Shown in pieces: positions 8,870 to 25,911 of a stretch of DNA of 36,140 nt. This DNA comes from Chitinophagaceae bacterium (GTDB lineage: Bacteria; Bacteroidota; Bacteroidia; Chitinophagales; Chitinophagaceae): positions 1 to 36,140 of the forward strand of contig CANGYW010000005.1 in the NCBI GenBank assembly GCA_947458335.1, read 5' to 3'. The translations under genes were made by a program, and so were the position numbers. The notes under the pieces were generated by a model, which was not told the DNA's origin, searched no databases, and was given only the letters and a program-made list of their open reading frames with translations. The stretch's first letter is position 1, and each line of letters opens with the position of its first letter.

Positions 8870-10204
8870 GTGAAAAAAGTTTTCTCCCTTATTACACTCC
8901 TGATCAGCTTGTCGTTGATTGGTATCATTTTCTTACAGGTCTCTTGGATCAGAAACATGGTATTGGTTAGACAAGAGCAGGTCAAGTACCAGGTTATTGA
9001 GGTGGTCAAAGAAGTAACCGATGATATCATGCAAAACAAGGGAGCTTTTCAGCCCGGCAGTCCACGACGCAACTGGCTCGACGGATTAGGCTGGGAATCT
9101 TTTAGCCCCAGCTCAGTAGCCAGTCGGTATTCGGTCGAAGATCTTGACCGTAAGTTCCGTCTCGCGTTTAAAAAAAGTAAGCTGCCCGATTTGACCTACG
9201 AATTTGCACTGGCCTCTTTTGACCGAATGGGATATAATGTTTACGAAAAGGTAACACCCGGTTTTTTTGCAGCCAAAGAGGATACCGTTCATAATTTTAG
9301 CGTCAACAGGGGGTTTACTCCGTTTAGTGGAACTATCGGGGAGAGTTTGATGGCCAGTGAGGTATTGTTTGTGGTAGTGCCTGACCTGCAGCAAGTGGTA
9401 CTGCGTTCGTTGCGTTGGAATATTGCCGCTTCTGTTTTGTTTACGCTGATTATTGTGTTGGCCTTTTATGTAACGGTCAAAACGCTCTTGCAGCAAAAGA
9501 AACTCAGTGAGATCAAAAATGATTTCATCAATAACATGACGCATGAATTTAAGACTCCGTTGGCCACCATTTCGCTGGCGGTGGATGCCATGCGTAACGA
9601 AAAGGTTATGCAAGACCGGGAGCGACTCGCTTATTTTAACGGAATTATCAAAGAAGAGAACCTGCGCATGAATCGCCAGGTAGAAACGATATTAAAGGCC
9701 TCTCAGCTAGAGCGTAACGAGATACAGCTAAGTATGAAGCCGGTGTCATTACATATCATCGTAGAGCAGGTGGTCTCTAATTTCGGCTTACAACTCGAGA
9801 ATGCGCAGGGAAAGATTGATCTGCAGTTGAAGGCCACATCCGATCGAGTAGTGGCCGACGAAATTCATTTGTCTAACCTTATTAACAACCTTATCGATAA
9901 CGCCATCAAGTATGCGAAAGAGGGAGTGCCGCCCCATATTCGAATCAGTTCTGCCTTACAAGGAAAGCAGGTTCTGCTTTTTATCGAGGATAACGGAATG
10001 GGTATGAGTCGTGATACTCTCAAACGGATTTTTGAAAAATTCTATCGAGCCCACACGGGTAATCGTCATAACGTAAAAGGATTCGGACTTGGACTGAGCT
10101 ACGTAAAAACAGTCACCGAAGCAATGGGCGGGCAGGTAAAGGCCGATAGCACGTTAGGAAAAGGCAGTCAGTTTACGATTTCTTTTCCGCTGGCTGTTTA
10201 TTAA
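8870..10204 (+). CDS. Sensor histidine kinase (no adjacent response regulator)
   Basis: 444-residue membrane histidine kinase. Two membrane segments (about 5-24 and 183-204) enclose a periplasmic sensor region of about 155 residues that I do not recognise. There is no obvious HAMP domain; TM2 leads through a short linker to the HisKA domain, NNMTHEFKTPL, with phospho-acceptor His225. The ATPase domain shows the N box (LINNLIDNAIKYA), G1 (IEDNGMGM), F (FEKFYR) and G2 (GFGLGLSYV), so it should be active. Neighbours are YqgE (divergent) and queA (convergent); the usual partner regulator is absent. The start is GTG. Its stop overlaps that of queA in TTAA. Confidence 0.92.
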   Translation: MKKVFSLITLLISLSLIGIIFLQVSWIRNMVLVRQEQVKYQVIEVVKEVTDDIMQNKGAFQPGSPRRNWLDGLGWESFSPSSVASRYSVEDLDRKFRLAFKKSKLPDLTYEFALASFDRMGYNVYEKVTPGFFAAKEDTVHNFSVNRGFTPFSGTIGESLMASEVLFVVVPDLQQVVLRSLRWNIAASVLFTLIIVLAFYVTVKTLLQQKKLSEIKNDFINNMTHEFKTPLATISLAVDAMRNEKVMQDRERLAYFNGIIKEENLRMNRQVETILKASQLERNEIQLSMKPVSLHIIVEQVVSNFGLQLENAQGKIDLQLKATSDRVVADEIHLSNLINNLIDNAIKYAKEGVPPHIRISSALQGKQVLLFIEDNGMGMSRDTLKRIFEKFYRAHTGNRHNVKGFGLGLSYVKTVTEAMGGQVKADSTLGKGSQFTISFPLAVY

Positions 10205-11421
10205 ACGTTTCTCCAAAGCAGGCTACCATCTCCATAACTCAAGAATCGGTACTCATTATCGAGGGCGTGCTGGTAGATCTTTCGCCAGTCTTCTCCTACC
10301 AGTGCCGCAATTAGCAATAGCAGCGTAGAGCGGGGCTGGTGAAAGTTAGTCAGCAGCCCATCAACAACCTTACAAGGATATCCTGGAGCTACTAGCAGAG
10401 AGGTTTGCGTAACAAAATGGCTCAGTTTTTTTTGTTTCATCCAGGCGATCAAGGCCTCTAATACGCTAGCCAGCGGAGCCGCCTCTTGTTGCAGTGTATA
10501 ACATTCCCATTGCGAGAGTGTCGGAGGTTGTTGATGATCTTCTTTCATTATTTTAAGACCAAGCCAATACAAACTCTCGAGGGTGCGTAGCGAGGTGGTA
10601 CCTACTGCAATCAATGGTCTTCCGAGTTGTGATCTCCAGTTCTCTAAAAAAGAAAGTGTTACATCAATCCATTCTGCGTGCATATCATGCTCTTGCATGG
10701 TGGCCACCTTGACTGGTTTAAAGGTTCCGGCTCCTACGTGTAGGGTCAAAAAATCAATTCGTATAGAACGCGCTCTCATGCGTTGCAGTAATTCGTCTGT
10801 GAAATGCAGTCCTGCTGTTGGAGCAGCTACCGATCCTTCATTTCGGGCATATACGGTTTGATACGCAGTGCGATCCAGTTTGTTTGCAGGTCTTTTTATA
10901 TAGGGGGGAAGTGGTGTGGCACCCGCTATTTCGAGCACGTTGGCCAATGAAAGTTCCGCAGGGGTCCAGCTAAACTCAATTAGAAAATAATCTTTTTCTT
11001 TTTGCAGTACCCTTGCATGCAATTGCAAGTTGTCAACTTGTTTCGTAAGTGTAATTCCAGATTTCCACTTCGAAGCACCGCCTACCAAACATTGTAATAC
11101 TACTTTTTGGTTAACCAGTAATGCTGCACTCATTTCTCCATAGGCAGCATCGGGTTGCAAACAAAAGATCTCGATCTGTCCACCTGTACTTTTTTCGAAC
11201 ACCACTCGGGCCGGTATTACTTTGGTTTCGTTAAAGACAACAAAACTTTCTGCAGGCAACAACTCCGATAGTGACAGATAGCGATAATCGTTGATGGTTC
11301 CGTTTTTGTAGCAAAGCAATTTCGACTCGTGGCGAATAGCCAATGGTGCAGCGGCGATTCTCTCGGGGGGCAACGGGTAGTCAAAATCGTCTATCGATAA
11401 AAGGCGGGGGTCTTTATTCAT
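10201..11421 (-). CDS. queA: S-adenosylmethionine:tRNA ribosyltransferase-isomerase
   Basis: Enzyme of queuosine synthesis that transfers and isomerises the ribose of SAM onto preQ1 in tRNA, giving epoxyqueuosine. The N-terminus LSIDDFDYPLPPERIAAAP, the central YQTVYA and AAPTAGLHFT, and the C-terminal LLTNFHQPRSTLL are typical. The track ORF starts at 11493, but the first 24 residues (MENLCVAQKG...) have no family counterpart and the ATG at 11421 (MNKDPRLLSIDDF) is preferred, giving 406 residues, longer than the 356 of E. coli. A degenerate -7 box (GATATTTG) lies about 22 nt upstream of that ATG. No other queuosine gene is nearby. Confidence 0.93.
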   Translation of the reverse strand: MNKDPRLLSIDDFDYPLPPERIAAAPLAIRHESKLLCYKNGTINDYRYLSLSELLPAESFVVFNETKVIPARVVFEKSTGGQIEIFCLQPDAAYGEMSAALLVNQKVVLQCLVGGASKWKSGITLTKQVDNLQLHARVLQKEKDYFLIEFSWTPAELSLANVLEIAGATPLPPYIKRPANKLDRTAYQTVYARNEGSVAAPTAGLHFTDELLQRMRARSIRIDFLTLHVGAGTFKPVKVATMQEHDMHAEWIDVTLSFLENWRSQLGRPLIAVGTTSLRTLESLYWLGLKIMKEDHQQPPTLSQWECYTLQQEAAPLASVLEALIAWMKQKKLSHFVTQTSLLVAPGYPCKVVDGLLTNFHQPRSTLLLLIAALVGEDWRKIYQHALDNEYRFLSYGDGSLLWRNV

Positions 11422-11485
11422 ACAACCAACTGTTGATGGGCTGCAAATATCGGAAAAGCCCTCCCCTTTTTGGGCTACGCACAGG

Positions 11486-11515
11486 TTTTCCACAGCAATT
11501 CACATGCTATCCACG
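11486..11515 (+). other. Pair of DnaA-box-like sequences upstream of the dcw cluster
   Basis: TTTTCCACA at 11486-11494 fits the DnaA box consensus TTWTNCACA exactly, and CTATCCACG at 11507-11515 fits with two mismatches, in the same orientation with start points 21 bp apart. A third, inverted near match (TTATCCCCA on the minus strand) is at 11587-11595. The 259-base gap between queA and mraZ also holds the mraZ promoter and operator. Whether DnaA binds is unknown. Confidence 0.35.
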
Positions 11516-11611
11516 GGAATATCTTAAAATAACTACTCCCACACGCTAAAAGCTAAGCCAGTAAAGGGTTTCAGCGAATTATTTAGTGGGGATAAATTAA
11601 GAAGGTCAAAA

Positions 11612-11644
11612 TTTGGTATCATGGTGGGAAAAAGTGTTATTTTG
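11612..11644 (+). promoter_or_regulatory. Predicted promoter of the dcw cluster
   Basis: TTTG at 11612-11615 and TATTTTG at 11638-11644 (one T short of TAnnTTTG), spaced by 22 bp, form the best promoter candidate before mraZ. The start site would be near 11650, giving a leader of about 30 nt. It overlaps the putative MraZ operator. Confidence 0.45.
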
Positions 11645-11650
11645 TGGTAA
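11621..11650 (+). promoter_or_regulatory. Putative MraZ operator: three 10-bp direct repeats
   Basis: Three adjacent 10-mers share a GTG core in register: ATGGTGGGAA, AAAGTGTTAT and TTTGTGGTAA, with GTG at 11624, 11634 and 11644. E. coli MraZ is known to bind TGGGN repeats separated by 5 nt (10-bp period) upstream of its own gene, and mollicute MraZ binds AAAGTGKNN repeats, which the middle unit matches. A further GTGGGGA lies at 11586. The repeats cover the predicted -7 box, which fits autorepression. Confidence 0.6.
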
Positions 11651-11680
11651 TTCGAAAAAAAATTACTCAAATCACTGATA

Positions 11681-12139
11681 ATGACTGGCTTTCTGGGAGA
11701 ATTCGAGGCTACGTTAGACGCAAAGGGGCGATTTCTGCTTCCTGCCGGATTTAAGCGGCAGGTAAAGGAGGAGGAGTTGGGCCGCTTTGTGATCAATCGG
11801 GGATTTGAGCAGTGCCTGGCTCTTTATACGCTCAAGGAGTGGGAGCCTTTGTTCGAAAAGATCAAAGGCTTGAACGAGTTCGATCCCCGCCAGCGTGAAT
11901 TCCGCAGGGCTTTTTTGAATGGCGCCACCTATGTGGAACCCGATACCGCCGGACGTATTCTGTTGCCGCCGAATCTAAAGGCGTATGCAGAACTCGAAAA
12001 AGATATTGTGATAGCGTCTTCGGGTAACAAAATGGAAATCTGGGATAGTAATAAGTACAAAAAGTTCTTTGACTCCTTTTCTTCGGATGCTTTCAGCAAG
12101 CTGGGCAATGAAGTGATGGGAGGCGGACCCGCTAATTGA
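11681..12139 (+). CDS. mraZ: Transcriptional regulator MraZ
   Basis: 152-residue DNA-binding protein with two tandem AbrB-like half domains: GEFEATLDAKGRFLLPAGFK near the N-terminus and VEPDTAGRILLPPNLK at about 85-105. MraZ forms rings and represses the dcw operon in E. coli. It is the first gene of the division and cell-wall cluster, with matching 10-bp repeats 30-60 bases upstream. The start ATG at 11681 gives the standard MTGFLGEFE N-terminus. It is followed after 9 bases by rsmH, the usual order. Confidence 0.95.
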   Translation: MTGFLGEFEATLDAKGRFLLPAGFKRQVKEEELGRFVINRGFEQCLALYTLKEWEPLFEKIKGLNEFDPRQREFRRAFLNGATYVEPDTAGRILLPPNLKAYAELEKDIVIASSGNKMEIWDSNKYKKFFDSFSSDAFSKLGNEVMGGGPAN

Positions 12140-12148
12140 TCAGTTACC

Positions 12149-13057
12149 TTGCAGCCTTCGTATCACATACCTGTACTACTGGCTGAGGTGATCGAGGGTC
12201 TCTCCATCAAACCCGACGGCATCTATGTGGACTGCACTTTTGGAGGCGGTGGCCATGCACGCGCCATACTCGAGAAGTTGGGACCACAAGGTCGCCTGGT
12301 AGCTTTTGATCAGGATAGCGATGCTAGGGCTAACCTTCCGACCGATGATCGGATTGTTTTTGTGCCAGAGAATTTCAGATATCTGCATCGCTTTCTTCGT
12401 TTACACGGATTACTGCCGGTGGATGGTTTGCTCGCAGATCTAGGTGTTAGCAGTCATCAGTTCGATGAGGCGTCTAGAGGTTTTTCGACCCGCTTTGATG
12501 CTGCCCTCGACATGCGAATGGACCAACGGCTTTCTAAAACGGCTTTTTGGGTAGTAGACACTTATCAAGAGGCGAAACTGCACAAAATTTTTGAGCAGTA
12601 TGGAGAAGTGACCAACGCCAAGACACTGGCCAAGACTATCGTAGCTGCTCGTGCCACACAATCCCTTCGTACGATCGATGGATTTAAGCAAGCGATTCGC
12701 GATGCCGTAAAAGGAAATCCCAATAAATACTTTGCCCAGGTATTTCAGGCCTTGCGGATGGAAGTCAACGAAGAGCTCGATGCGCTCAACGAACTTCTCT
12801 CGCAATTATCGCAGGTCATCAAGCCTGGCGGCAGGGTGGCCATCATCAGTTTTCATTCGCTCGAAGACAGAATGGTCAAGCAGTTCTTTAAAGAGGGTAC
12901 CCTCGAGCAAAGACAGGATCACCCGTTTCTCTCTATCCCGTCAACATCTCCGTGGAAGCCGCTCACCAAAAAGCCTGTCGTAGCGGGCAGCGAAGAGTTG
13001 AAAAAAAATCCGCGGTCACGCAGCGCAAAACTGCGAGTGGCGCAAAAAGTAGCATAG
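12149..13057 (+). CDS. rsmH: 16S rRNA (cytosine(1402)-N(4))-methyltransferase
   Basis: SAM-dependent methyltransferase (MraW) that modifies C1402 of 16S rRNA at N4. 302 residues: N-terminus SYHIPVLLAEVIEGL, SAM-binding motif I VDCTFGGGGHARAIL, then LADLGVSSHQFDEASRGFS, and near the end IISFHSLEDRMVKQFF, all diagnostic. The start is TTG at 12149; no ATG lies closer to the conserved N-terminus. Second gene of the dcw cluster, co-transcribed with mraZ and ftsL. Confidence 0.97.
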   Translation: MQPSYHIPVLLAEVIEGLSIKPDGIYVDCTFGGGGHARAILEKLGPQGRLVAFDQDSDARANLPTDDRIVFVPENFRYLHRFLRLHGLLPVDGLLADLGVSSHQFDEASRGFSTRFDAALDMRMDQRLSKTAFWVVDTYQEAKLHKIFEQYGEVTNAKTLAKTIVAARATQSLRTIDGFKQAIRDAVKGNPNKYFAQVFQALRMEVNEELDALNELLSQLSQVIKPGGRVAIISFHSLEDRMVKQFFKEGTLEQRQDHPFLSIPSTSPWKPLTKKPVVAGSEELKKNPRSRSAKLRVAQKVA

Positions 13058-13066
13058 GAAGCTATC

Positions 13067-13402
13067 ATGCAAAACGGAACAAACGATAAGAAAATGAATT
13101 GGAGTCGCTGGTTTCATTACCAGTCGCTGGTGCAGCAGGTGCCTTTCTTTTTGTTTCTGGCACTGCTCGCCGTGCTGTATATCTATAACGGTCATTATGC
13201 AAACAAGACGATCCGCGATATCAATAAAACAGAAAAAGAAGTAAAAGAACTCAAATACGAATATAAAATGATCAAGGGAGAATTGTTATCGAGAACCAAG
13301 CAGAGCGAACTGATCAATGCCGTGGCCCCGTTGGGACTGCAGGAGTTGACTGTTTCGCCGGTGGTATTAGTGGACAGTCTTCCTAAGCCCGTGCAACAAT
13401 AA
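13067..13402 (+). CDS. ftsL: FtsL-like cell division protein
   Basis: 111-residue bitopic membrane protein: a cytoplasmic N-terminus of about 24 residues, one membrane segment (about 25-41, PFFLFLALLAVLYIY), then a heptad-like charged helix (about 47-77, INKTEKEVKELKYEYKMIKG) typical of a FtsL coiled coil, and a short tail. Sequence similarity to E. coli FtsL is minimal; the call rests on size, topology and position between rsmH and ftsI, the standard place. It should bind FtsQ and activate FtsW-FtsI. No separate ftsB is seen in the cluster. Confidence 0.82.
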   Translation: MQNGTNDKKMNWSRWFHYQSLVQQVPFFLFLALLAVLYIYNGHYANKTIRDINKTEKEVKELKYEYKMIKGELLSRTKQSELINAVAPLGLQELTVSPVVLVDSLPKPVQQ

Positions 13403-13407
13403 AACCG

Positions 13408-15540
13408 ATGCAGGTAAAACGCGACATATTGTGGAGGGTGTACATCAGCTTTATCGGCCTGGCCTTACTGGGTGCGGGGGTGGTGGGTCGTGCTTTTTAT
13501 ATTCAGCGCTTTCAAGGGGCCTACTGGAAGCGACTTAGTGATAGTTTGCACCAGCGGTATGTAACGCTCGATGCACAGCGAGGCACAATCTATTCCGAAG
13601 ATGGACAATTTCTGAGCACCTCCATTCCCACCTTTGATATTTATCTTGATCTCTGTGCCGATGGGCTGCGCGAAAAGAAAGGGCGTCGCTTTAAAGAAAA
13701 TATCGATTCGTTTTCCGTGGCCCTCTCAGGACTGTTTCAGGACCAAGCACCTGCCCAGTACAAAGCAGCCATTACAGCTGCCTACGAAAAGAAGTCACGG
13801 TATTATCCACTAAAAAAGAAATTAAGTTTTTCGCAATACAAGGCTTTTCGCGAATTACCCTTGGTAAGGTTAGGTCCTAATCGCAGCGGCGTAATTGTAG
13901 AGACGAACAGCAAGCGATTATTGCCCTATGGAATTTTAGCCGGTCGCACTATTGGATTGTCTCGCGAACATCTGGCCAGCGATGGTAAGGTCAGAAAGCA
14001 AAATGTAGGTTTAGAGAGAAGCTATGACTCGTTGCTCAGCGGAAAAGAAGGAGTGAGACTGGTGCGATTTATTGCAGGTGGAGCTGCGATTCCCATTGCT
14101 GGTTCGGAGACGGAACCGGAGAACGGAAAAGACATCTACACGACGATCGATCTGCCCATGCAGGATATTACCGAAACGGCCTTAATGCGGATGATGGTAC
14201 AAAGCGAGGCCCTATACGGTACGGCTATCGTAATGGAGACGGCTACCGGAAAGATAAAGGCCATGGCCAATCTGGGACGTAGACCCGATGGACATTATTG
14301 GGAAGATGATAACTATGCCCTGCGCGCCACCGAGCCTGGCTCTACCATTAAGCTAGCTACATTATTGGCTGTGCTGGAAAAGGGAACAAGTCGTATCGAT
14401 GATCCTGTAGAAATCGGAAGTGCAGGCCGCGCTATGGTGGGCCCTAAAATGGTAATTGATGCCGAGCGTTCTCCTAAGCCTTTTTTAACGGTCAAAGAAT
14501 GTTATGCGCATAGTTCGAACGTGGGCATGAGCAAACTAGCTTTAAAGGCATTTGGAAAGGATCCCCAGGAGATCAAAACATATTTCACCAAATTTCATCT
14601 CGACAAACGCGCACCAATCGATCTGAGCAATGTACCAAGGCCCAGCATGGCACCGCTCAACGAAAAGGGAAGTTCATTGGGAAATATGCTATGGATGAGT
14701 TTTGGCTATGCTATTCAGGTAAGTCCGTTACATACGCTTACTCTTTATAATGCTGTGGCTAATGGCGGTAAAATGATGAAGCCTTATTTGGTGAGCCGTA
14801 TTCAGCAAGGTGGAACACTATATCGTGAAGTAGAGCCTACTGTCTTAGAAGAACAGTTGTGTAAGCCCGAGGTGATAACAGCAGCACGCAGTGCCATGGA
14901 GTCTGTGGTTATTGAAGGAACCGCACGGCGCGCTTTCGAAGGTGTTCCGTTTGCCGTAGCCGGAAAGACAGGTACGGCGCTAGTGTCGGATGGCCCCATT
15001 AAATATGGAGATCGGGTATACCAGGCTTCTTTTGTTGGCTACTTTCCAGCCGATCGTCCCCAATATACTTGCATTGTAGTGGTACGTACTAAGCCTTACG
15101 CTGCTTCGCACTACGGAGGCACGGTGGCTGCTCCTGTTTTTCGCGAGATCGCTACCAAGGTCTATGCGATGTATGTCGATCGAAAAGATCCTTCTCAATT
15201 TGTAAAAAAGACCGACAGCACGCTTTTCTTCTATGCCGGAAACAGCAGCGACCTGCGCCAAGTATTTCAAACACTTCAATTACCCTATACCGATTCGATG
15301 CAGCAACAAGTGTGGGTCAAAGCCTATAATCCGCAGGGCAAGACCGTACTTAAGGCGCAACCCTTACGAAGCAAAGTAATGCCCAACGTTAAAGGAATGG
15401 GTTTAAAGGATGCGTTGTATTTGCTGGAGAATATGGGTGTAAAAGTGCAGGTAAAAGGCAGAGGAAGAATTGTGTCGCAATCGGTGGCTCCGGGTACGGC
15501 ACTAGATCGTCCATTACAGATAATACTTGAGTTGAGTTAA
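13408..15540 (+). CDS. ftsI: Septal peptidoglycan transpeptidase (PBP3/FtsI) with C-terminal PASTA domain
   Basis: Class B penicillin-binding protein of 710 residues that cross-links septal peptidoglycan in the periplasm. One N-terminal membrane anchor (about 9-31); a pedestal domain containing RGTIYSEDGQFLSTS; the transpeptidase with the active serine in STIK (S312), SSN at 369-371 and KTG at 520-522. The last 55 residues (from MPNVKGMGLKDALYLLENMG) form a PASTA domain, absent from E. coli FtsI but found in Firmicutes PBPs and many Bacteroidota. It starts 6 bases after ftsL and is followed by murE. All catalytic motifs are intact. Confidence 0.95.
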   Translation: MQVKRDILWRVYISFIGLALLGAGVVGRAFYIQRFQGAYWKRLSDSLHQRYVTLDAQRGTIYSEDGQFLSTSIPTFDIYLDLCADGLREKKGRRFKENIDSFSVALSGLFQDQAPAQYKAAITAAYEKKSRYYPLKKKLSFSQYKAFRELPLVRLGPNRSGVIVETNSKRLLPYGILAGRTIGLSREHLASDGKVRKQNVGLERSYDSLLSGKEGVRLVRFIAGGAAIPIAGSETEPENGKDIYTTIDLPMQDITETALMRMMVQSEALYGTAIVMETATGKIKAMANLGRRPDGHYWEDDNYALRATEPGSTIKLATLLAVLEKGTSRIDDPVEIGSAGRAMVGPKMVIDAERSPKPFLTVKECYAHSSNVGMSKLALKAFGKDPQEIKTYFTKFHLDKRAPIDLSNVPRPSMAPLNEKGSSLGNMLWMSFGYAIQVSPLHTLTLYNAVANGGKMMKPYLVSRIQQGGTLYREVEPTVLEEQLCKPEVITAARSAMESVVIEGTARRAFEGVPFAVAGKTGTALVSDGPIKYGDRVYQASFVGYFPADRPQYTCIVVVRTKPYAASHYGGTVAAPVFREIATKVYAMYVDRKDPSQFVKKTDSTLFFYAGNSSDLRQVFQTLQLPYTDSMQQQVWVKAYNPQGKTVLKAQPLRSKVMPNVKGMGLKDALYLLENMGVKVQVKGRGRIVSQSVAPGTALDRPLQIILELS

Positions 15541-15556
15541 AAAATAAACAGCGTCT

Positions 15557-17020
15557 GTGAAGCTGAGTGAATTGTTATACGGGGTATCGGTTGTATCGGT
15601 GAGTGGTTCTACCGCAGTGGAGCCGCTCAGCATAACTACCGACTCTCGTCAGGTTAGACCGGGTGCCTTGTTTATTGCTGTACGCGGCACCCGTGTAGAT
15701 GGACAACAATTTATTCAGCAGGCGCTAGAGCAAGGGGCTATCGCTATTGTTACTGAAACAATACCCACTTCTTGTGCGGTTGATAAGACCTTTGTGCAAG
15801 TCTCTGATGCAGCACTGGCATCTGCTTTGATCGCCTCGCAATTCTTTGGCAATGCAGCGGCTCGCCTAAAAGTGGTGGGCGTAACCGGCACCAACGGAAA
15901 AACCACTATTGCCACCTTACTGTATAAACTTTTTTCTGGCTTGGGCTTTACCTGCGGACTGATTAGTACGGTAGAGAACCGGATTGGCGATCACTCGGTT
16001 CCCTCTACGCATACGACACCCGATCCTGTTCAACTGCAGCACTTGTTGCATCAAATGGAACAGGCTGGTTGTACGCATGTATTCATGGAGGTCAGCTCTC
16101 ATGCCATTCATCAACACCGGATAGCCGGTATTTCGTTCGCTGGGGGCATCTTTAGTAACATCACGCACGATCACCTCGATTATCATAACACTTTTGATGA
16201 ATATATCCGGGTAAAAAAATCTTTTTTTGATACACTACCAGCCACCGCCTTTGCGCTAAGTAATGCCGACGATAAGCGAGGGGCCGTTATGTTACAAAAT
16301 TGTAAGGCTCGCAAACTTTTTTATGCGCTTCGTACGCTGGCCGATTATAAGGGTCGCTTGCTCGACAATGGGCTCGAGGGATTACAGCTTACTATCGATG
16401 AGGTAGAAGTGCATTTTCGATTGATCGGCACCTTCAACGCCTACAATCTGCTAGCGGTATACGGAGCGGCTTGTGCGCTTGGACTCGAAAAGATGGAAGT
16501 GCTCACCCAGCTCAGTCAGTTGCAGGGGGCACCCGGTCGCTTTGAATGTATTGTCTCGGCGAAGGAGCAGGTATTAGCTGTTGTAGATTATGCACACACG
16601 CCTGATGCATTGCTTAACGTACTCACTACGTTAAAGCAGTTGCGCAAGCCCGATCAACAATTGACGACCGTTACTGGCTGTGGTGGTGATCGGGATCGTA
16701 CCAAGCGTCCGTTGATGGCAGCGGCGGTGGCGGCGCACAGTGACCGCTTCATTTTTACCAGTGATAATCCCCGTTCCGAAGATCCCGCCTCTATTATTAA
16801 GGATATGGAAGAGGGGTTGGCAGCAGCAGATTACAAAAAATATATTCCGATTGTAGATCGTGATGCCGCCATCAAGACGGCAATCACCTTATCGGCACCA
16901 CACGATATTATACTGGTAGCTGGCAAGGGGCATGAGACCTATCAGGATATAAAGGGAACCAAAGAACATTTTGACGATCGCGAGACTGTTCGCAAATGGT
17001 TTGCGACACTCGATAAATAA
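15557..17020 (+). CDS. murE: UDP-MurNAc-L-Ala-D-Glu:meso-DAP ligase
   Basis: Cytoplasmic Mur ligase that adds the third stem-peptide residue using ATP. 487 residues; ATP loop VTGTNGKTT at 109-117, and the amino-acid specificity motif DNPRSEDP beginning at D403. DNPR is the form typical of meso-diaminopimelate-adding enzymes, so DAP-type peptidoglycan is predicted. Start GTG at 15557, giving [10 protein letters not shown]. Placed directly between ftsI and mraY; murF, which often comes next in Proteobacteria, is missing here. Confidence 0.96.
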
Positions 17021-17028
17021 AAGGAACT

Positions 17029-18306
17029 ATGTTATATCATTTTTTTGACTGGCTGGCCGAAGAAGGAATTCGCTTTCCGGGCAGTCGTGTCTTTGATTAT
17101 ATCACGTTCCGGACATTACTAGCCATTCTTTTATCGCTGTTTATTACGCTTGTGTATGGAAAGAAACTCATTACTTTTTTACAAAAAAGACAAATCGGGG
17201 AAAGTATTCGTGAAGAGGGGTTGGCTGGCGAGGCCAGTAAAAAAGGAACGCCAACGATGGGAGGTATTATTATAATCCTGGCGATTCTGATTCCTACTTT
17301 GCTATTGGCTGATCTAACCAAGGTGTATGTGCAATTGATGTTAGTGAGTACGGTTTGGCTGGGGATCATCGGATTTATCGACGATTATCTTAAACTCCGT
17401 AGTAAGCGGTTAGCCCAACAGCAAGGAAAAGAGTATAAGAAATCAAATGCCGACGGGCTGGCCGGTTGGTTCAAGATACTAGGTCAGGTAGGCTTGGGTA
17501 TTACCGTTGGCGCAACGTTGTATTTTAATTCCGAGGTGGTCATCTGGCGAGAGTACACCGGCCAGCGTCCGCAAGCAGACAGTACTGTCTTTGCTAAGAC
17601 TTTCAATGGCAAAACACATTATTATGTGTCGACCAAAACTCCCATTACCACCATACCCTTTGTAAAGAATCACGAGTTTAATTATGCAAAGCTGCTACCG
17701 ACCCAATGGCGCGAGTATACCTGGCTGCTGTATATAGCGATCGTCATCTTTATTATCACGGCGGTTTCTAACGGAGCTAATCTAACGGATGGGTTAGATG
17801 GACTCGCTACCGGAACTGCGGCACTGATCGGTGTTTTGCTGGGCATTTTTGCCTATGCCAGCGGTAATCTGGTCTTTGCGGACTATCTCAATATTATGTA
17901 CATCCCCGATCTGGGTGAGCTCTCTATCTACATTGCGGCACTGATTGGCGCTTGTATTGGCTTTCTATGGTACAATTCGTATCCTGCCCAATTATTTATG
18001 GGCGATACAGGCAGTCTGACGTTAGGAGGCATTATTGCAGCCCTATCCATTATTGTTCATAAAGAATTATTGATACCGATCTTTTGTGGGGTGTTTCTGG
18101 TAGAATCATTGAGCGTAATTATCCAAGTCGGCTACTTTAAGTATACGAAAAGAAAATTCGGAGAGGGACAGCGAATTTTTCTCAAGGCACCTATTCATCA
18201 TCATTACCAAGTTAAAGGATATCATGAGGTCAAAATTGTGAATCGATTTTGGATTGTAACGGTGCTCTTGGTGGTATTAAGTATCGTGACCCTAAAACTT
18301 CGGTAA
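17029..18306 (+). CDS. mraY: Phospho-N-acetylmuramoyl-pentapeptide transferase
   Basis: Integral membrane enzyme that makes lipid I from UDP-MurNAc-pentapeptide and undecaprenyl phosphate. 425 residues with about ten membrane segments; catalytic aspartates in FIDDY (118-119) and in NLTDGLDG (251-258), and the histidine-rich PIHHHYQ near the C-terminus. It is some 60 residues longer than E. coli MraY, largely because of a loop at about 168-232 ([10 protein letters not shown] to [13 protein letters not shown]) between two membrane segments, on the periplasmic side if the topology is as in E. coli. Such a loop is, from memory, normal in Bacteroidota. Confidence 0.96.
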
Positions 18307-18319
18307 GGCGAAGGCTTGT

Positions 18320-19660
18320 ATGGGAAAACGAGTTGTTATACTGGGCGGAGGCGAAAGCGGGGTCGGAGCCGCTTTGCTGGCCAAGCGAAAAGGATACGAG
18401 GTGTTTGTCTCCGACGGAAGTTCTTTGAAAGAAAACTATCGTAATGAACTGTTGAGCGAGGGCATTGCTTTCGAGGAGGGAATGCATACCCTAGATCGAG
18501 TGTTGCAGGCCGATGAAGTAATTAAGAGTCCGGGTATTCCCGAATCGTCTGCGGTGATGAAAGCTATTCGTGCCAAAGGTATTCGGGTGATTAGTGAAGT
18601 AGAACTAGCCTATCGTTATAAGGGAGATAGCCGGATTGTCGCCATTACCGGGAGTAATGGAAAGACTACAACTACCTCATTGGTCTACCAGCTATGCCGT
18701 TGTGCCGGACTCGATGTGGCATTGGTTGGAAATATCGGCTACTCATTTGCCCGACAAGTTGCCCTCGAGCCGCATGAACTCTATGTGGTCGAGATCAGCA
18801 GTTTTCAGCTCGATGATATTGATCAGTTCTGTCCTCATGTGGCGATCTTAACCAATATCACTGAAGATCATCTCGATCGTTACGATTACGTTTTCTTGAA
18901 TTATATCAATAGCAAGTTTAGGATCACCATGAATCAAGGCCCCGCCGATTTTTTTATCTACTGTGCCGATGATGCGGTGACCCAGACCTACCTTAAAAAT
19001 TTTAGTATATCATCTAACCAACTACCCATTAGCATGAAAAGAGAAGTATCACCTGGTGCATTTATCAAAGACGGAGACATGTACGTGCGGACCGGCAACG
19101 AAGTGATGACGATGAGCGTCTTCGACTTTGCGCTAAAGGGAAAGCATAACCAGTACAACACGATGGCAGCTTGTGTGGCAGCGGCAACGCTCGATATTCG
19201 CAAAGACAAGATTCGCGATGCTGTGCAGCATTTTGAGCAATTAGAACACCGTATGGAATATGTGGCTACGGTACGTGGCGTTGAATTTATCAACGATAGT
19301 AAGGCCACGAATGTGAATTCTACTTGGTATGCGCTCGAAAGTATGACAAGCCCTACCATTCTTATTTTAGGAGGTGTCGATAAAGGAAACGATTACTCGC
19401 TGCTGGCCGAAGGCATTCGCGATAAGGTAAAAGCCATTATCTGTCTTGGTAAAGACACTAAAAAGATTCATGAAGCCTTTGGTAAGATCGTTAATGTGTT
19501 GGTCGATACGCATAGCGCCGAAGAGGCCGTGCAAACGGCATTTCATCTGGCTGCCAAGGGAGATACAGTCTTGCTAAGTCCGGCCTGCGCCAGTTTTGAT
19601 TTGTTCAAAAATTACGAGGATCGTGGCCAGCAATTTAAAAAAGCTGTAAAAGATCTCTAA
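18320..19660 (+). CDS. murD: UDP-MurNAc-L-alanine:D-glutamate ligase
   Basis: Cytoplasmic Mur ligase that adds D-glutamate to UDP-MurNAc-L-Ala. 446 residues: an N-terminal Rossmann-like domain (VVILGGGESGVGAA), the ATP loop TGSNGKTTT at about 110-118, NITEDHLDRY in the central domain, FINDSKATNVNST and the C-terminal LILGGVDKG and LSPACASFDLFKNYEDRG, the last being the standard MurD ending. It lies 13 bases after mraY and 3 before ftsW. Confidence 0.97.
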   Translation: MGKRVVILGGGESGVGAALLAKRKGYEVFVSDGSSLKENYRNELLSEGIAFEEGMHTLDRVLQADEVIKSPGIPESSAVMKAIRAKGIRVISEVELAYRYKGDSRIVAITGSNGKTTTTSLVYQLCRCAGLDVALVGNIGYSFARQVALEPHELYVVEISSFQLDDIDQFCPHVAILTNITEDHLDRYDYVFLNYINSKFRITMNQGPADFFIYCADDAVTQTYLKNFSISSNQLPISMKREVSPGAFIKDGDMYVRTGNEVMTMSVFDFALKGKHNQYNTMAACVAAATLDIRKDKIRDAVQHFEQLEHRMEYVATVRGVEFINDSKATNVNSTWYALESMTSPTILILGGVDKGNDYSLLAEGIRDKVKAIICLGKDTKKIHEAFGKIVNVLVDTHSAEEAVQTAFHLAAKGDTVLLSPACASFDLFKNYEDRGQQFKKAVKDL

Positions 19661-19663
19661 TCA

Positions 19664-20941
19664 ATGGAAGCTCCCCGCGACATACGACTGACCGATCTGC
19701 GTAGCAGCTTTACCACCGATAATCTGCTCAGGAAGACCCGTGGTGATAAAGTAATCTGGGCTTTAGTGGTAGTGCTTACCCTGGTGTCGTTGCTGGCGGT
19801 CTACAGTGCGACTGGCTCACTGGCGTATAAAAATTATAAGGGAAATACCGAGGTATATCTGTTTAAGCAAGTCGTCTTTATTTTAGGAGGATTACTAGTT
19901 ATTTACTTCGCACATCTAGTCAACTATACCTTTTATTCTAAGGCAGCTCGTATTGTTTTTTTGATCTCGCTACCATTACTTTTTTATACATTATTCTTTG
20001 GGGTCAAGATGAACGAGGGCAGTCGCTGGATCAAATTGCCCATTATCAATATGACCATGCAGACCTCCGATCTGGCAAAGCTGGCCTTGTTCATGTATCT
20101 GGCAAGGCTATTGAGCAAGAAGCAAGATATGATCAAGGATTTCAAAAAGGGATATCTGATGGTTATTTGGCCTGTGCTCTTGACTTGTATGCTGATTGCT
20201 CCGGCCAATCTTTCTACCGCACTGCTGCTGGGGGCTAGTTGTTTGCTGCTACTTTTTATTGGAAGAGCCAGTGCCAAGCATCTCTTGCTTACTATGGGAT
20301 TAGCCATGATCCCGATCCTGTTGTTGATCGCTACGGCAGTCGTGCGCCATCACAGCGAAAGCAGCGAGGAGCCGACCTCGGTCAAAGCCTCTACTTCGGC
20401 GCTTACCGCTAGGGTGGATACCTGGATAAATCGAGTAGAGACCTTTATTTATGGTGGTCAGGATAGTGACACCGATGCCTACCAGGTCAATCAGGCTAAG
20501 GTGGCTATTTCGAAAGGAGGATTATTGGGGGTGGGTCCTGGTAACAGTACCACGCGCGACTTTTTACCGCAGGCCTATAACGATTTTATTTATGCCATCA
20601 TTATAGAAGAATACGGAATACTAGGAGGAAGTTTTATGGTCTTTATCTACTTGGTATTCCTGTTTCGTTGTATCAGAATATTTAAACGATGTCCGTTTGC
20701 CTTTGGAGCATTTTTGGCACTGGGGCTCAGTTTTACGCTGGTTATTCAAGCGTTGGCCAATATGGCGGTAACCGTCAACCTGTTTCCAGTAACAGGGGTT
20801 ACGCTTCCACTCGTGAGCATGGGAGGAAGTAGTTTCATTTTTACTTGTTTGGCCATCGGTATCATTTTGAGTGTAGCGCGAAATGTAGAACAACTCGAGG
20901 GAAAGGCAGAAGAGAAAATGGTTAAACCGGCTGCTGCATGA
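19664..20941 (+). CDS. ftsW: Septal peptidoglycan glycosyltransferase FtsW
   Basis: SEDS-family polymerase that extends glycan strands from lipid II at the septum together with FtsI. 425 residues, about ten membrane segments beginning at about 28 (VIWALVVVLTLVSLLAVYS), NEGSRWIKLP in the expected early loop, and KGGLLGVGPGNSTTRDFLPQAYNDFI, the SEDS signature with an acidic residue pair further on (IIIEEYG). LPLVSMGGSS closes the family pattern. RodA is the alternative but position within dcw points to FtsW. Its stop overlaps the murG start (ATGA). Confidence 0.95.
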   Translation: MEAPRDIRLTDLRSSFTTDNLLRKTRGDKVIWALVVVLTLVSLLAVYSATGSLAYKNYKGNTEVYLFKQVVFILGGLLVIYFAHLVNYTFYSKAARIVFLISLPLLFYTLFFGVKMNEGSRWIKLPIINMTMQTSDLAKLALFMYLARLLSKKQDMIKDFKKGYLMVIWPVLLTCMLIAPANLSTALLLGASCLLLLFIGRASAKHLLLTMGLAMIPILLLIATAVVRHHSESSEEPTSVKASTSALTARVDTWINRVETFIYGGQDSDTDAYQVNQAKVAISKGGLLGVGPGNSTTRDFLPQAYNDFIYAIIIEEYGILGGSFMVFIYLVFLFRCIRIFKRCPFAFGAFLALGLSFTLVIQALANMAVTVNLFPVTGVTLPLVSMGGSSFIFTCLAIGIILSVARNVEQLEGKAEEKMVKPAAA

Positions 20942-22032
20942 GCTCTAGAATTCTGATAGCGGGTGGAGGAACGGGAGGACATATTTTTCCTGCGCTGGCC
21001 ATAGCAGGAGCGATCAAGAAGCTAGAGCCTTTGGCATCGATCTTGTTCGTGGGGGCCAAGGGAAAAATGGAAATGGAGAAAGTACCCCAGGCTGGTTATT
21101 CGATTGTGGGGTTAGATATAGTAGGATTCGATAGAAGTTCTTTGACAAAAAATGTTGCACTGCCCTTTAAGCTGGTCAAAAGCTTTTGGCAAGTCAGAAA
21201 CATCTTGCGGCACTTTCGTCCGGATGCTGTACTGGGCGTGGGAGGTTACTCCAGCTTTCCGGTATTGCGTTATGCGCAGGTAAAGGGTATCCCGACTTTT
21301 TTGCATGAGTCCAATGCGTATGCGGGAAAGTCCAATCAATTGCTGGCTAAGCGGGCAACTGCCATTTTTACCGGCGTATCTGGTTTAGAGCGATTCTTTT
21401 CATCGCAAAAGATCTTTTTTACCGGTAATCCGGTCAGAGCCTCTATTTGTGGTGTACTGCCCGATCGAGAAACGGCAAGAGCTTTCTTTGGGCTGTCTGT
21501 ACATCAACCTGTGCTACTGGTAATGGGAGGCAGCTTGGGAGCCCGCTCTATTAACCAGGCCATTGATGACGGAATGGAACAACTAAAGCGCAACGGTATT
21601 CAATTGATCTGGCAAACCGGTAAGTCCTATGCAGAACAAGCAGCGAAGCGTGTCGCTGGTTATAGCGGGTGTTACACGGCCGACTTTATTCAACAAATGG
21701 AGATGGCCTATGCCGCTGCTGATGTAGTAATAGCTCGGGCCGGTGCCATGACAGTAGCTGAATTAGCGGTAGTCGCTAAGCCGGTATTATTCGTTCCGTT
21801 TCCCTTGGCAGCCGAAGATCATCAGCGAGTCAATGCCGAGCAGCTCGTTAGCAAGCAAGCTGCCTTGTTGATTGCAGATGCAGAGGCGGGTGTTTCGTTA
21901 GTTCCCGCTGCCATCGCACTTTGCCTAGATGTAACAAAGCAGCAAGTGCTCAGTAGGGCCATTGCATCGTTTGCGGTTCGGGATGCTGCTGAGAAGGTGG
22001 CGATAGAACTTATCAGGCAATTGAAAAAGTAA
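20938..22032 (+). CDS. murG: UDP-GlcNAc:lipid I N-acetylglucosamine transferase
   Basis: Peripheral membrane glycosyltransferase that converts lipid I to lipid II. 364 residues with the glycine loop GGGTGGHIFPA (9-19), GVGGYSSFPVL, HESNAYAGKSN, the second glycine-rich GGSLGARSIN and the UDP-binding RAGAMTVAELA. The start ATG overlaps the TGA of ftsW by 4 bases, so translation is probably coupled. murC follows after a single base. Confidence 0.97.
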   Translation: MSSRILIAGGGTGGHIFPALAIAGAIKKLEPLASILFVGAKGKMEMEKVPQAGYSIVGLDIVGFDRSSLTKNVALPFKLVKSFWQVRNILRHFRPDAVLGVGGYSSFPVLRYAQVKGIPTFLHESNAYAGKSNQLLAKRATAIFTGVSGLERFFSSQKIFFTGNPVRASICGVLPDRETARAFFGLSVHQPVLLVMGGSLGARSINQAIDDGMEQLKRNGIQLIWQTGKSYAEQAAKRVAGYSGCYTADFIQQMEMAYAAADVVIARAGAMTVAELAVVAKPVLFVPFPLAAEDHQRVNAEQLVSKQAALLIADAEAGVSLVPAAIALCLDVTKQQVLSRAIASFAVRDAAEKVAIELIRQLKK

Positions 22033-22033
22033 A

Positions 22034-23455
22034 ATGAGATCAACAATCGATACAACGCTTTTGCAAGAGTCCTTTCGGATAGGAGGAGGGCTACGCGAAC
22101 TCTGTTTTATTGGTATCGGAGGTATTGGTATGAGTGCACTGGCCCGATTTTTTCACGAGCAAGGTGTTAAAGTAACTGGCTATGATAAAACACCCAGTGC
22201 ACTGACCCGTTCGCTAGAAGATTCGGGTATAGCGGTGCATTATAGCGAAGATCTAGCAGCGGTGGCTCGTTCGGCCGATGCAGTGGTGTATACGCCGGCT
22301 GTTCCGTCTACGCATCTCGAGCTACGCTGGTATAAAGAAAATGGATACACGCTATGGAAAAGAAGCGATCTGCTACAACAGATCACTAATCGTTCTTTGA
22401 ATGTTTGTATAGCCGGTACACACGGAAAGACCACCACCTCTACTCTCGTGGCACATTTGTTGCGGCACAGTGGTTTTGGGGGGAATGCTTTTTTAGGAGG
22501 TATCGCCGCTAACTACGGAACCAATCATTGGAGTAGCCAGGTAAACTGTTGCGTTGTTGAAGCAGATGAGTACGACCGGAGTTTTTTAAAGTTGCTACCT
22601 CATATCGCGTTGATCAGTGCTATGGATCCTGACCATCTCGATATCTACGGAGATGTCGCTTCGATGGAACAGGCCTTTATTGATTTTAGTGCTCTGATCC
22701 CGAAGGGAGGGTTGCTGGTGTATAAGTGGGGACTACCCAGGGCTGGAGATCTTAAAGGACCGCAGAAGCTCAGCTATCACGCACGTAACGAAAGTGCCGA
22801 TTGCTATGCCGTAAATGCTATAGTATCCGATGGCGGCTATCGCTTTACCGCGGTAATTGATGGAGAACGGATCGGTGATCTTTTTTTACCGATGGGTGGA
22901 TGGCATAATGTCGAAAATGCCATTGGGGCCATTACGGTAGCAAGAGCACTCGGACTTAGTGTAGAGTCTATTCGCGAAGCACTGGCTTGTTTTAAGGGTG
23001 TGCAACGTCGCTTTGAAAAGCTCATTGATAACGATCGGTTGGTATTGATCGATGACTATGCGCATCATCCCGAGGAATTGCGGGTGTTGATAGAGGGCGT
23101 TCGTTCGCTGTATCCAACGGCAACTTGTACGATCTTATTTCAACCGCATTTATACTCTCGTACGCGCGATTTAGCCAAGGAGTTTGCACAGGCCCTGGCT
23201 ACTGCAGATCGGGTAGTGTTACTGCCGCTCTACCCAGCTCGTGAGTTGCCAATAGAGGGGGTAAGTAGCGAATTGATCGGATCGTTACTATATGATGTAC
23301 CACTGGTATATCTCGAGGGAGATGCCGTGGTCGAGTGGGTAGAAGAGGAATATCACCGGAGGAGATCGACCGGTCAACAGGTATTTGTTATAGCGGGCGC
23401 TGGCGATATTGATCGGTTGCCAGCATCGATAAAAAAAAGAATAGAAAATAGTTAA
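22034..23455 (+). CDS. murC: UDP-MurNAc:L-alanine ligase
   Basis: First Mur ligase, adding L-Ala to UDP-MurNAc. 473 residues: GIGGIGMSALA at 27-37, the ATP loop GTHGKTTTSTL beginning at G128, EADEYDRSFL and later DDYAHHPEEL and FQPHLYSRTRDL, all diagnostic of MurC. A run of eight A residues lies just before the stop (SIKKRIENS). It begins one base after murG and ends 14 bases before ftsQ. In the pathway it acts before murD although its gene comes later. Confidence 0.97.
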   Translation: MRSTIDTTLLQESFRIGGGLRELCFIGIGGIGMSALARFFHEQGVKVTGYDKTPSALTRSLEDSGIAVHYSEDLAAVARSADAVVYTPAVPSTHLELRWYKENGYTLWKRSDLLQQITNRSLNVCIAGTHGKTTTSTLVAHLLRHSGFGGNAFLGGIAANYGTNHWSSQVNCCVVEADEYDRSFLKLLPHIALISAMDPDHLDIYGDVASMEQAFIDFSALIPKGGLLVYKWGLPRAGDLKGPQKLSYHARNESADCYAVNAIVSDGGYRFTAVIDGERIGDLFLPMGGWHNVENAIGAITVARALGLSVESIREALACFKGVQRRFEKLIDNDRLVLIDDYAHHPEELRVLIEGVRSLYPTATCTILFQPHLYSRTRDLAKEFAQALATADRVVLLPLYPARELPIEGVSSELIGSLLYDVPLVYLEGDAVVEWVEEEYHRRRSTGQQVFVIAGAGDIDRLPASIKKRIENS

Positions 23456-23469
23456 ACAGGTATAAAGAA

Positions 23470-24474
23470 TTGAATTTTAAAAGAACCATACAACGCATTT
23501 TGTTTGTTGCCTTCTGGCTATCAGTAGGCACTGGTATGATATTGTTACTGGCCGCCGCTATTCGGGGTCGTAACAAAGAGAAGCTTCGCGCCTATACCAT
23601 CGAAATAAAGGCTGGACCTGGAGGTGCCTTTTTGACCGAAGGTGATGTAGAGGAATTATTACAACACTCCACGGCCGGTGTAAGAGGCGAGCGGTTGGGT
23701 CTCTTTAATCTTCGGCTGGTAGAACAAAAGATTAAATCGCATATCAGGATAAGGGATGCCCAACTGTATTTTGATAACCAGGATGTGTTACATGTGCAGG
23801 TACAAGAAAAAGTGCCGCTGGCTCGATTGTTTACCGTGAGCGGAGGCTCTACTTATTTGGATGAGCAAGGAAGGTTGATGCCCTTGTCTTTGATCAAGAC
23901 CATTAAGGTGCCCGTATTTACCGGACTCTCCGACTCGGTGCTTTCAAGAAAACCGGATACAGTTTTATTGCAACAGGTCTTTGCGATGGCACAGTATTTG
24001 GCACGTGATTCATTTTGGGCTTCGCAAGTGGCACAGATCGACTATACGTCTGCTCAAGAGTGGGAATTAATACCGGTCGTTGGTGATCACGTGGTAAAAT
24101 TGGGAAGTCTCACCGATATCGAAGCAAAGTTGCGTAGGCTGATGATCTTCTACCAACAGGTATTGAGCAAAACTGGACTGAGTCGCTACCGAATGATCGA
24201 TGTACGCTTTAATGGACAGGTCATAGCCGGTAGTATGAGCAGTGCTCGGGTAGATTCCTTACAATTAAGAAGAAGTGTAGAAAAATTATTACGAGATGCA
24301 ACGGAAGCCGAAAATGATACTATCGTGCGTGTTCTTCCTAAGCCTTTACAACCCTTATTGCCCGACGATCCCAATCCCACGCTCCTTGAATTAAAGACGG
24401 TCTTGCCAGGTGCCACAAAAACAGACACTACTCAATCGGTCATATCCATACAAAAAAAATCAAACAACAACTAA
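23470..24474 (+). CDS. ftsQ: Cell division protein FtsQ
   Basis: 334-residue bitopic protein linking the Z-ring to the FtsW-FtsI synthase. Short cytoplasmic N-terminus, one membrane segment (about 10-31), a POTRA-like domain (about 40-110, from TIEIKAGPGGAFLTEGDVEELL) and a beta domain ending near 270; then a Pro-rich tail of about 60 residues. Sequence similarity to model FtsQ proteins is low; the call rests on architecture and on location between murC and ftsA. The start is TTG at 23470. Confidence 0.9.
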   Translation: MNFKRTIQRILFVAFWLSVGTGMILLLAAAIRGRNKEKLRAYTIEIKAGPGGAFLTEGDVEELLQHSTAGVRGERLGLFNLRLVEQKIKSHIRIRDAQLYFDNQDVLHVQVQEKVPLARLFTVSGGSTYLDEQGRLMPLSLIKTIKVPVFTGLSDSVLSRKPDTVLLQQVFAMAQYLARDSFWASQVAQIDYTSAQEWELIPVVGDHVVKLGSLTDIEAKLRRLMIFYQQVLSKTGLSRYRMIDVRFNGQVIAGSMSSARVDSLQLRRSVEKLLRDATEAENDTIVRVLPKPLQPLLPDDPNPTLLELKTVLPGATKTDTTQSVISIQKKSNNN

Positions 24475-24484
24475 ACCACTTATT

Positions 24485-25864
24485 ATGAACAACGAAAACC
24501 CCATCATTGTCGGTCTCGACATCGGCACTACCAAGATTGCCGTGATTGCCGGTAGAAAAAATGAGTTCGGCAAACTCGAGATTCTCGGTTTTGGTAAAGC
24601 CAACTCTAATGGTGTCAAGCATGGCCAGGTGCTTAACATCGATGAAACAATCAAGGCCATTCGCACGGCCCTTGATAATTGTTTTGCCTCGAATCCTAAC
24701 CTCGATATTAATGAGGTATACGTAGGAATTGCGGGTCATCATATTAAAAGCTTGCAAACAAGAGGAGATATGGTCCGCCAGCGTACAGAAGAAGAAGTGG
24801 CCCAGCACGAGATCGATAAACTGGTCGATGATCAGCGTAAGACCTACATTCCTGCAGGCGATCAGATCATCGATGTAATTCCACAGGAATTTACAGTTGA
24901 TAATATTCCCAACATCGCTAACCCTATTGGTTATGGAGGCGTTAAGATCGGTGCTAATTTTCATATTATAACCGGCGATAAGAATGCCATTCGTAATATC
25001 AACAGGAGCGTAGAAAAAGCAGGATTGATCACCAAAGACCTGGTGTTGCAACCCCTGGCCTCTTCTGCTGCCGTTATGGGGCAAGAAGATCTTGAGGCGG
25101 GGGTAGCTATTGTGGATATTGGAGGGGGTACCACCGACCTGGCTGTCTTTAATGAAGGTATTTTGAAGCATACGGCCGTGATTCCTTTTGCCGGTGAGAA
25201 TATTACCAATGATATCAAATCAGGATTAGGTGTATTAAAGACGCAAGCAGAGCAGATGAAAGTGCAATTCGGAAGTGCCCTTGCCAACGAGGCCAAGGCC
25301 AATGCCTATATCACTATTCCCGGTTTGCGGGGTATGCCTGCCAAAGAGATCAGCGTAAAAAATCTGGCGAATATCATTCAAGCGCGCATGAGTGAGATTA
25401 TGGATTTTGTAACCTATCATCTCAAACAGGTCGGGTTAGATAATAAAGCGTTGAATGGAGGTATTATCTTAACCGGTGGAGGTTCACAACTAAAGCATTT
25501 GATTCAGTTAACCGAATATGTAACCGGACTCAATGCTAGGATCGGATTTCCAAATGAGCACTTGGCCGCTGGTCATATCGAAGAACTATCCAAGCCTACG
25601 TACTCTACTTGCATCGGCCTTATCCTAAAAGGGTATGATGATTATGAGCACAATCGCAAAGATTTTGAAAAGGGATATCGTCAAGTACAAGTACCCGATG
25701 GACTGCGTCGTGGTCAGACCGTAAATACACCAGAGACGCTAGAAGCTGAGGGTGTGAGTGAAGACCAGATGAAACATCGTCGTAACCTCACTGGCTTCTG
25801 GAGTAAGTTCAAAGACCGTATCATTGATTTATTTAAAGAAGAAGAGGACAAACACCTCGGATAA
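24485..25864 (+). CDS. ftsA: Cell division protein FtsA
   Basis: Actin-like ATPase that tethers FtsZ to the membrane. The track ORF starts at 24410 inside ftsQ, but the ATG at 24485 gives MNNENPIIVGLDIGTTK, the normal N-terminus, and 459 residues. The phosphate-1 loop is GLDIGTTKIAV, phosphate-2 is IVDIGGGTTDLAVF (D211), and the adenosine motif is ILTGGGSQL. The C-terminus (FWSKFKDRIIDLFKEEE) is an amphipathic helix, the membrane-targeting element. A 243-residue antisense ORF over this gene is a shadow. ftsZ follows after 47 bases. Confidence 0.96.
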   Translation: MNNENPIIVGLDIGTTKIAVIAGRKNEFGKLEILGFGKANSNGVKHGQVLNIDETIKAIRTALDNCFASNPNLDINEVYVGIAGHHIKSLQTRGDMVRQRTEEEVAQHEIDKLVDDQRKTYIPAGDQIIDVIPQEFTVDNIPNIANPIGYGGVKIGANFHIITGDKNAIRNINRSVEKAGLITKDLVLQPLASSAAVMGQEDLEAGVAIVDIGGGTTDLAVFNEGILKHTAVIPFAGENITNDIKSGLGVLKTQAEQMKVQFGSALANEAKANAYITIPGLRGMPAKEISVKNLANIIQARMSEIMDFVTYHLKQVGLDNKALNGGIILTGGGSQLKHLIQLTEYVTGLNARIGFPNEHLAAGHIEELSKPTYSTCIGLILKGYDDYEHNRKDFEKGYRQVQVPDGLRRGQTVNTPETLEAEGVSEDQMKHRRNLTGFWSKFKDRIIDLFKEEEDKHLG

Positions 25865-25911
25865 AAATCAATCCCACTAACCCATTCGAAATATTCCAAA
25901 ATCTAACGCTC

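Follow-up and report, generated by a model that had tools for sequence, protein, structure and literature searches.

MraZ operators have been described from few groups, and the MraZ unit of Escherichia coli is TGGGN. The E. coli protein represses its own promoter, Pmra (Eraso, 2014, as cited in PMC7761207); by the same secondary account it is bound at repeats upstream of mraZ, with repression of mraZ and the dcw genes that follow. In Mollicutes the site is given as (AAAGTGKN3)3 (Fisunov, 2016, as cited in PMC5282649 and PMC8475190), and in Burkholderia cenocepacia the mapped dcw promoter, PmraBc, contains repeats that form a putative MraZ site (PMC7761207). Our literature search found no binding or expression results for any Bacteroidota MraZ.

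Here we describe a candidate MraZ operator at 11621–11650 of a contig from an uncultured member of the Chitinophagaceae ("the window," i.e., the whole stretch of 36,140 nucleotides that was analysed). As in the Mollicutes operator, three direct repeats of 10 bp, each with GTGK at its core, stand upstream of mraZ at the dcw promoter, and the class-wide repeat unit of Bacteroidia, AAAGTGGKAA in two to five copies, agrees with the Mollicutes unit AAAGTGK. Here, however, the setting is a walled member of the Bacteroidota with a full 13-gene cluster and a Bacteroidota-type promoter, the Chitinophagaceae −7 box lies inside repeats 2–3, and a DnaA-box-like neighbour is conserved. Unlike E. coli, the core is GTGK and a wider regulon was not seen at the stringency used, whereas PmraBc is a sigma-70 type promoter from a different phylum. 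To the picture of an operator built into the dcw promoter this locus adds class-wide conservation, a phase rule relative to the −7 box and the DnaA-box-like neighbour, with one operator form traced by sequence over a whole class. We propose that MraZ has its dcw operator at 11621–11650 and that it probably represses its own transcription there by covering the core promoter (probability roughly 0.85).

Repeat array and predicted core promoter upstream of mraZ

The features of the locus are as follows (repeats from direct reading and conservation; conserved blocks from 60 Chitinophagaceae promoters).
10201–11421, minus strand: queA, the divergent neighbour, with its start at about 11421
11486–11515, plus strand: distal DnaA-box-like cluster, with TTTTCCACA at 11486–11494 and worn copies to 11515
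11587–11595, minus strand: proximal DnaA-box-like element TTATCCCCA (family form TTWTCC[A/C]CA)
11587–11600: conserved block 1, TGKGGAWAAA plus an A-rich stretch
11608–11616, plus strand: conserved block 2, a separate block with the predicted −33 element AAAATTTGG (TTTG at 11612–11615)
11621–11630, plus strand: MraZ repeat 1, ATGGTGGGAA (relatives: TAAGTGGGAA)
11622–11652: conserved block 3, the repeats with the −7 box
11631–11640, plus strand: MraZ repeat 2, AAAGTGTTAT, a perfect AAAGTGKN3 (consensus from PMC5282649)
11638–11645, plus strand: predicted −7 box TATTTTGT of the form TAnnTTGY, with the predicted start at about 11649–11650, inside repeat 3
11641–11650, plus strand: MraZ repeat 3, TTTGTGGTAA (relatives: TTTGTGTCAA)
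11681–12139, plus strand: mraZ, two MraZ domains, 152 aa
12149–27951, plus strand: remainder of the dcw cluster, rsmH to ftsZ

Direct reading bears out the original prediction of GTG cores at 11624, 11634 and 11644 within three contiguous 10-mers, and of a TATTTTG (11638–11644) lying over repeats 2 and 3, its final G being the first base of the third GTG. The array thus has the at least three direct repeats of exact 10-bp period by which we recognise an MraZ operator. A further claim, that the repeats mix both known consensus forms, did not hold: there is a single form, GTGK in a 10-bp unit, present in all three repeats (GTGG, GTGT and GTGG). The TGGG of unit 1 is merely GTGG followed by G, and unit 2 is a perfect AAAGTGK; units 1 and 3 of the window carry no AAA of the Mollicutes unit, so that full AAAGTGK is found in unit 2 only here and in most units across the class. 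The bare pattern GTG-N7-GTG-N7-GTG occurs once in the 36-kb window and is weak evidence alone, because about one in five shuffles yields one (18 of 100 whole-window shuffles gave at least one; mean 0.21). For the 259-bp queA–mraZ gap the expectation is about 0.0015, by our own arithmetic scaled from the shuffles. A chance origin is excluded because the repeats are conserved in relatives.

The cluster was correctly described at the outset as spanning 16 kb: 13 genes run from 11681 to 27951 with gaps of at most 48 nt, in the order mraZ, rsmH, ftsL, ftsI-type PBP, murE, mraY, murD, ftsW, murG, murC, ftsQ, ftsA and ftsZ. No sigma-70 promoters or terminators were found at 11400–11720, and searches for RNA families and tRNAs returned none. 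The FtsZ at the end of the cluster (25912–27951, 679 aa) matches the FtsZ domains to about residue 320 and continues in a long low-complexity tail.

The predicted −7 box fits TAnnTTGY, a shorter promoter form in Flavobacterium psychrophilum (PMC9723704), better than TAnnTTTG; TATTTTGT is one base shorter than the latter, and the alternative reading TTATTTTG has one mismatch to it. In 60 Chitinophagaceae genomes the box is invariant except for T/C at 11640. TTTG, described as a −33 element (PMC7366714), lies at 11612–11615, 26 bp before the −7 box, and is kept in about 87% of the 60 promoters. In other Bacteroidia, 55 of 58 TAnnTTT[GA] boxes begin 4–5, 14–16 or 24–25 bp past the last GTG and 57 of 58 have a phase of 4–6 modulo 10 from it, counts that are inflated by shared ancestry and that come from a set in which 21 of 78 promoters have no TAnnTTT[GA] box. 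The Chitinophagaceae box begins at −6 from the last GTG, within the array and in the same phase as in the class; therefore, the array covers the box by whole helical turns. That the −7 box moves relative to the array by whole helical turns and by no other step limits the ways in which MraZ can meet RNA polymerase.

From this arrangement we infer that MraZ, as a ring-shaped oligomer, would contact three GTGK cores that recur at every helical turn and so face the same side of the DNA, and that once bound it would cover the predicted promoter from about −29 to +1. Because repeats 2 and 3 contain the −7 box, MraZ and RNA polymerase would be mutually exclusive. MraZ would then repress mraZ together with the dcw genes behind it, with mraZ to ftsZ (11681–27951) as the putative regulated unit.

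Conservation of the array and its tie to mraZ

Phylogenetic footprinting had been proposed as a check on the original prediction, with absence of the array in relatives to count against it. Across the upstream regions of Chitinophagaceae genomes and of genomes from the order and class, the array is kept through family, order and class. The 60 Chitinophagaceae promoters show three conserved blocks separated by variable stretches, and identity reaches 93% or more at 21 of the 23 positions in 11624–11646. Of 116 Bacteroidia mraZ promoters, 109 contain two or more GTG cores with a spacing of exactly 10 bp; these comprise 31 of the 33 non-redundant Chitinophagaceae and 78 of the 83 promoters from other Bacteroidia. 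Exactly three in-phase GTGs occur in 29 of the 33 and more than three in 2, while 61 of the 83 have runs of at least three; dinucleotide shuffles give runs of at least two in about 3% and runs of three in <0.1%. In the same promoter set, GTG periods of 9 and 11 bp gave almost nothing, and 10-bp GTG runs on the opposite strand did not match the forward-strand frequency. Upstream of mraZ in two Chitinophagaceae loci (L059 and L062), the middle core is one base out (AAATGGGAAAAGTGGTTATTTTGTGGG), breaking the exact 10-bp register.

In the window the array stands directly upstream of mraZ at the head of the dcw cluster; most of the encoded protein can be aligned with MraZ chains of solved structure, and its closest relatives are 97–99% identical. 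Six genomes from four families that have rsmH and no mraZ show no run of three before rsmH, although three of the six carry less weight because they belong to one family in which rsmH lies close behind another gene. Among 34 congeners, the 23-base site was present in 32 (once in 31; one has an additional weak match). It is missing from G033, in which mraZ was not detected, and from G005, which has mraZ and no match to the site within 3 mismatches. As to further MraZ targets, the window's own genome has one exact match, and its 10 matches at no more than 1 mismatch (5 in a reversed control) are unconvincing; no plasmid copies of the mraZ promoter were found. By these sequence comparisons, the repeats belong to mraZ and MraZ appears as a single-target autoregulator at the stringency used. 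That MraZ regulates itself by covering the −7 region, as first predicted, draws support from the conservation, the co-absence with mraZ, the roughly one site per genome and the fixed phase.

Could the conserved block be the core promoter and nothing else (−33 element, A-tract and −7 box), with the GTG spacing a by-product? In Chitinophagaceae the −7 box does overlap repeats 2 and 3 and belongs to the invariant block, but other Bacteroidia keep the 10-bp GTG repeats with a −7 box placed outside them, and the array is gone in MraZ-less genomes; we consider this reading very improbable. An operator at which MraZ activates, or has mixed effects, is unlikely, if less so. Overexpression of MraZ in Mycoplasma gallisepticum led to filamentation and raised FtsZ (PMC8475190), as an activator might, yet a M. 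genitalium mraZ mutant had a raised ftsZ transcript (log2 2.34; PMC8475190), which fits repression, and MraZ is a repressor in the account of E. coli cited above (PMC7761207). That the predicted site spans −29 to +1 and takes in the −7 box also favours steric repression, i.e., the autorepression proposed here.

A DnaA-box-like neighbour of the array

The original prediction missed a second conserved element, which is DnaA-box-like. Its proximal copy lies 37 bp left of the first GTG, a distance fixed in most Chitinophagaceae; the distal cluster is conserved among close relatives, which have a distal pair such as TTATCCACAGCTATCCACAGG. Against the exact consensus TTWTNCACA, the distal TTTTCCACA matches and the proximal TTATCCCCA has one mismatch, while relatives mostly match. 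In the 60 nt preceding the array, TTWTNMACA is present in 22 of 30 Chitinophagaceae (1.8 in shuffles) and 61 of 78 other Bacteroidia (4.7 in shuffles), class-wide in 83 of 108 promoters against about 6.5 expected, and an unbiased word count recovers the same upstream words. In other Bacteroidia its most frequent end point is 2–3 bp left of the array. Strict TTWTCCACA has a density of about 0.03 per kb (800 kb of two relatives). An AACA word is retained before rsmH, without the array, in two MraZ-less dcw promoters, both in genomes with Ala-type DnaA (see below). In another genome, G134, four TTWTCCACA and one TTTTTAACA lie within 120 bp upstream of mraZ (L327:372–488), and no same-strand CACA pairs turned up elsewhere in that genome. 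The queA–mraZ gap was considered as a replication origin and rejected for G093, in which the GC skew changes sign at about 1.35–1.45 Mb and mraZ lies at 0.67 Mb. In G168 the GC skew was too weak to place the origin.

Many relatives have GTGG inside the 9-mer, as a further MraZ unit would. That identity is scarcely credible and was rejected, since its 36-bp distance to the first GTG does not fit the 10-bp period, and the 9-mer occurs in either orientation and is kept without MraZ. An addition to the operator reading, to which we give about even odds, is that besides MraZ, DnaA binds the upstream 9-mers (11587–11595 and from 11486) and would tune dcw transcription to the replication state. The class-wide enrichment of TTWTNMACA beside the array, the retention of the word in the two MraZ-less promoters and the conservation of the distal cluster point this way, as does the fact that the CACA/AACA form tracks DnaA residue 435 both in promoters and in genome-wide pairs. 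DnaA also binds the ftsL promoter region of Bacillus subtilis (Goranov, 2005, as cited in PMC8203912), the likeness being a replication initiator at the same division cluster; in that cited account binding was by ChIP, whereas here the evidence is sequence conservation beside an MraZ array. On the other side stand the residue-435 association, which is nearly one evolutionary event, an Ala-type exception (G120, with TTTTCCACA), the one-base departure of the window's proximal copy from consensus and dnaA promoters without a clear split, and E. coli DnaA boxes upstream of ftsZ proved unimportant (PMC8203912). Whether division-gene transcription receives input from replication initiation is an old question, which the DnaA-box-like neighbour makes testable in Bacteroidota; according to a review, a major effect on division timing is yet to be shown in any bacterium (PMC8203912).

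DnaA residue 435 and the form of the box

Position 435 of E. coli DnaA lies in the helix that reads TnCACA (PMC5742627). In Ser/Thr-435 genomes the promoter word matches the DnaA consensus. Residue and word combine as Ala/AACA in 33 genomes, Ser/Thr/CACA in 27, Ser/Thr/AACA in 5 and Ala/CACA in 0; TTWTNAACA was found in 33 of 34 Ala genomes versus 5 of 32 Ser/Thr genomes with a single form. G181 follows the association, and G120 breaks it (Ala with CACA, TTTTCCACA). Genome-wide, same-strand box pairs in Ala genomes number 56 for AACA (reversed-pattern control, 23) and 9 for CACA (control, 16), and in Ser/Thr genomes 13 for CACA (control, 4) and 23 for AACA (control, 13). The DnaA tree separates the Ala type from the rest at essentially a single branch, so that the association amounts to little more than one event and is no proof alone of co-evolution; the dnaA promoters, in which the CACA/AACA split is not clear, are a weak check on box form. 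The window genome (an assembly 84% complete) gave no match to DnaA domain IV, and its type was therefore taken from congeners with RDHTTVIHSC.

Tentatively, and at slightly under even odds, we suggest that the Bacteroidia dcw promoter is a conserved two-protein module, with DnaA boxes and an MraZ array phase-locked to the −7 box, through which DnaA would feed division transcription directly. Within one large clade, a Ser/Thr-to-Ala change at residue 435 would have gone hand in hand with a CACA-to-AACA change in the box, the mraZ and hup promoters having the new form.

AACA box pairs were also tried as origin markers and rejected: in an oriC search, 9 of 11 loci were hup promoters. In nine Ala-type genomes (L312–L320, about 1–1.6 kb in), a TTWTYAACA pair 19–20 bp apart stands before the gene for HU (hup), upstream of a promoter-like region; the hup promoters of Ser/Thr-type genomes showed no consistent boxes. 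The GC skew of G115 was uninformative. A possible replication origin was noticed in a complete genome (L324:9562–9853): four consensus DnaA boxes stand within about 290 bp, flanked by a nadA-like and a nadB-like gene, at a point where the sign of the local GC skew reverses.
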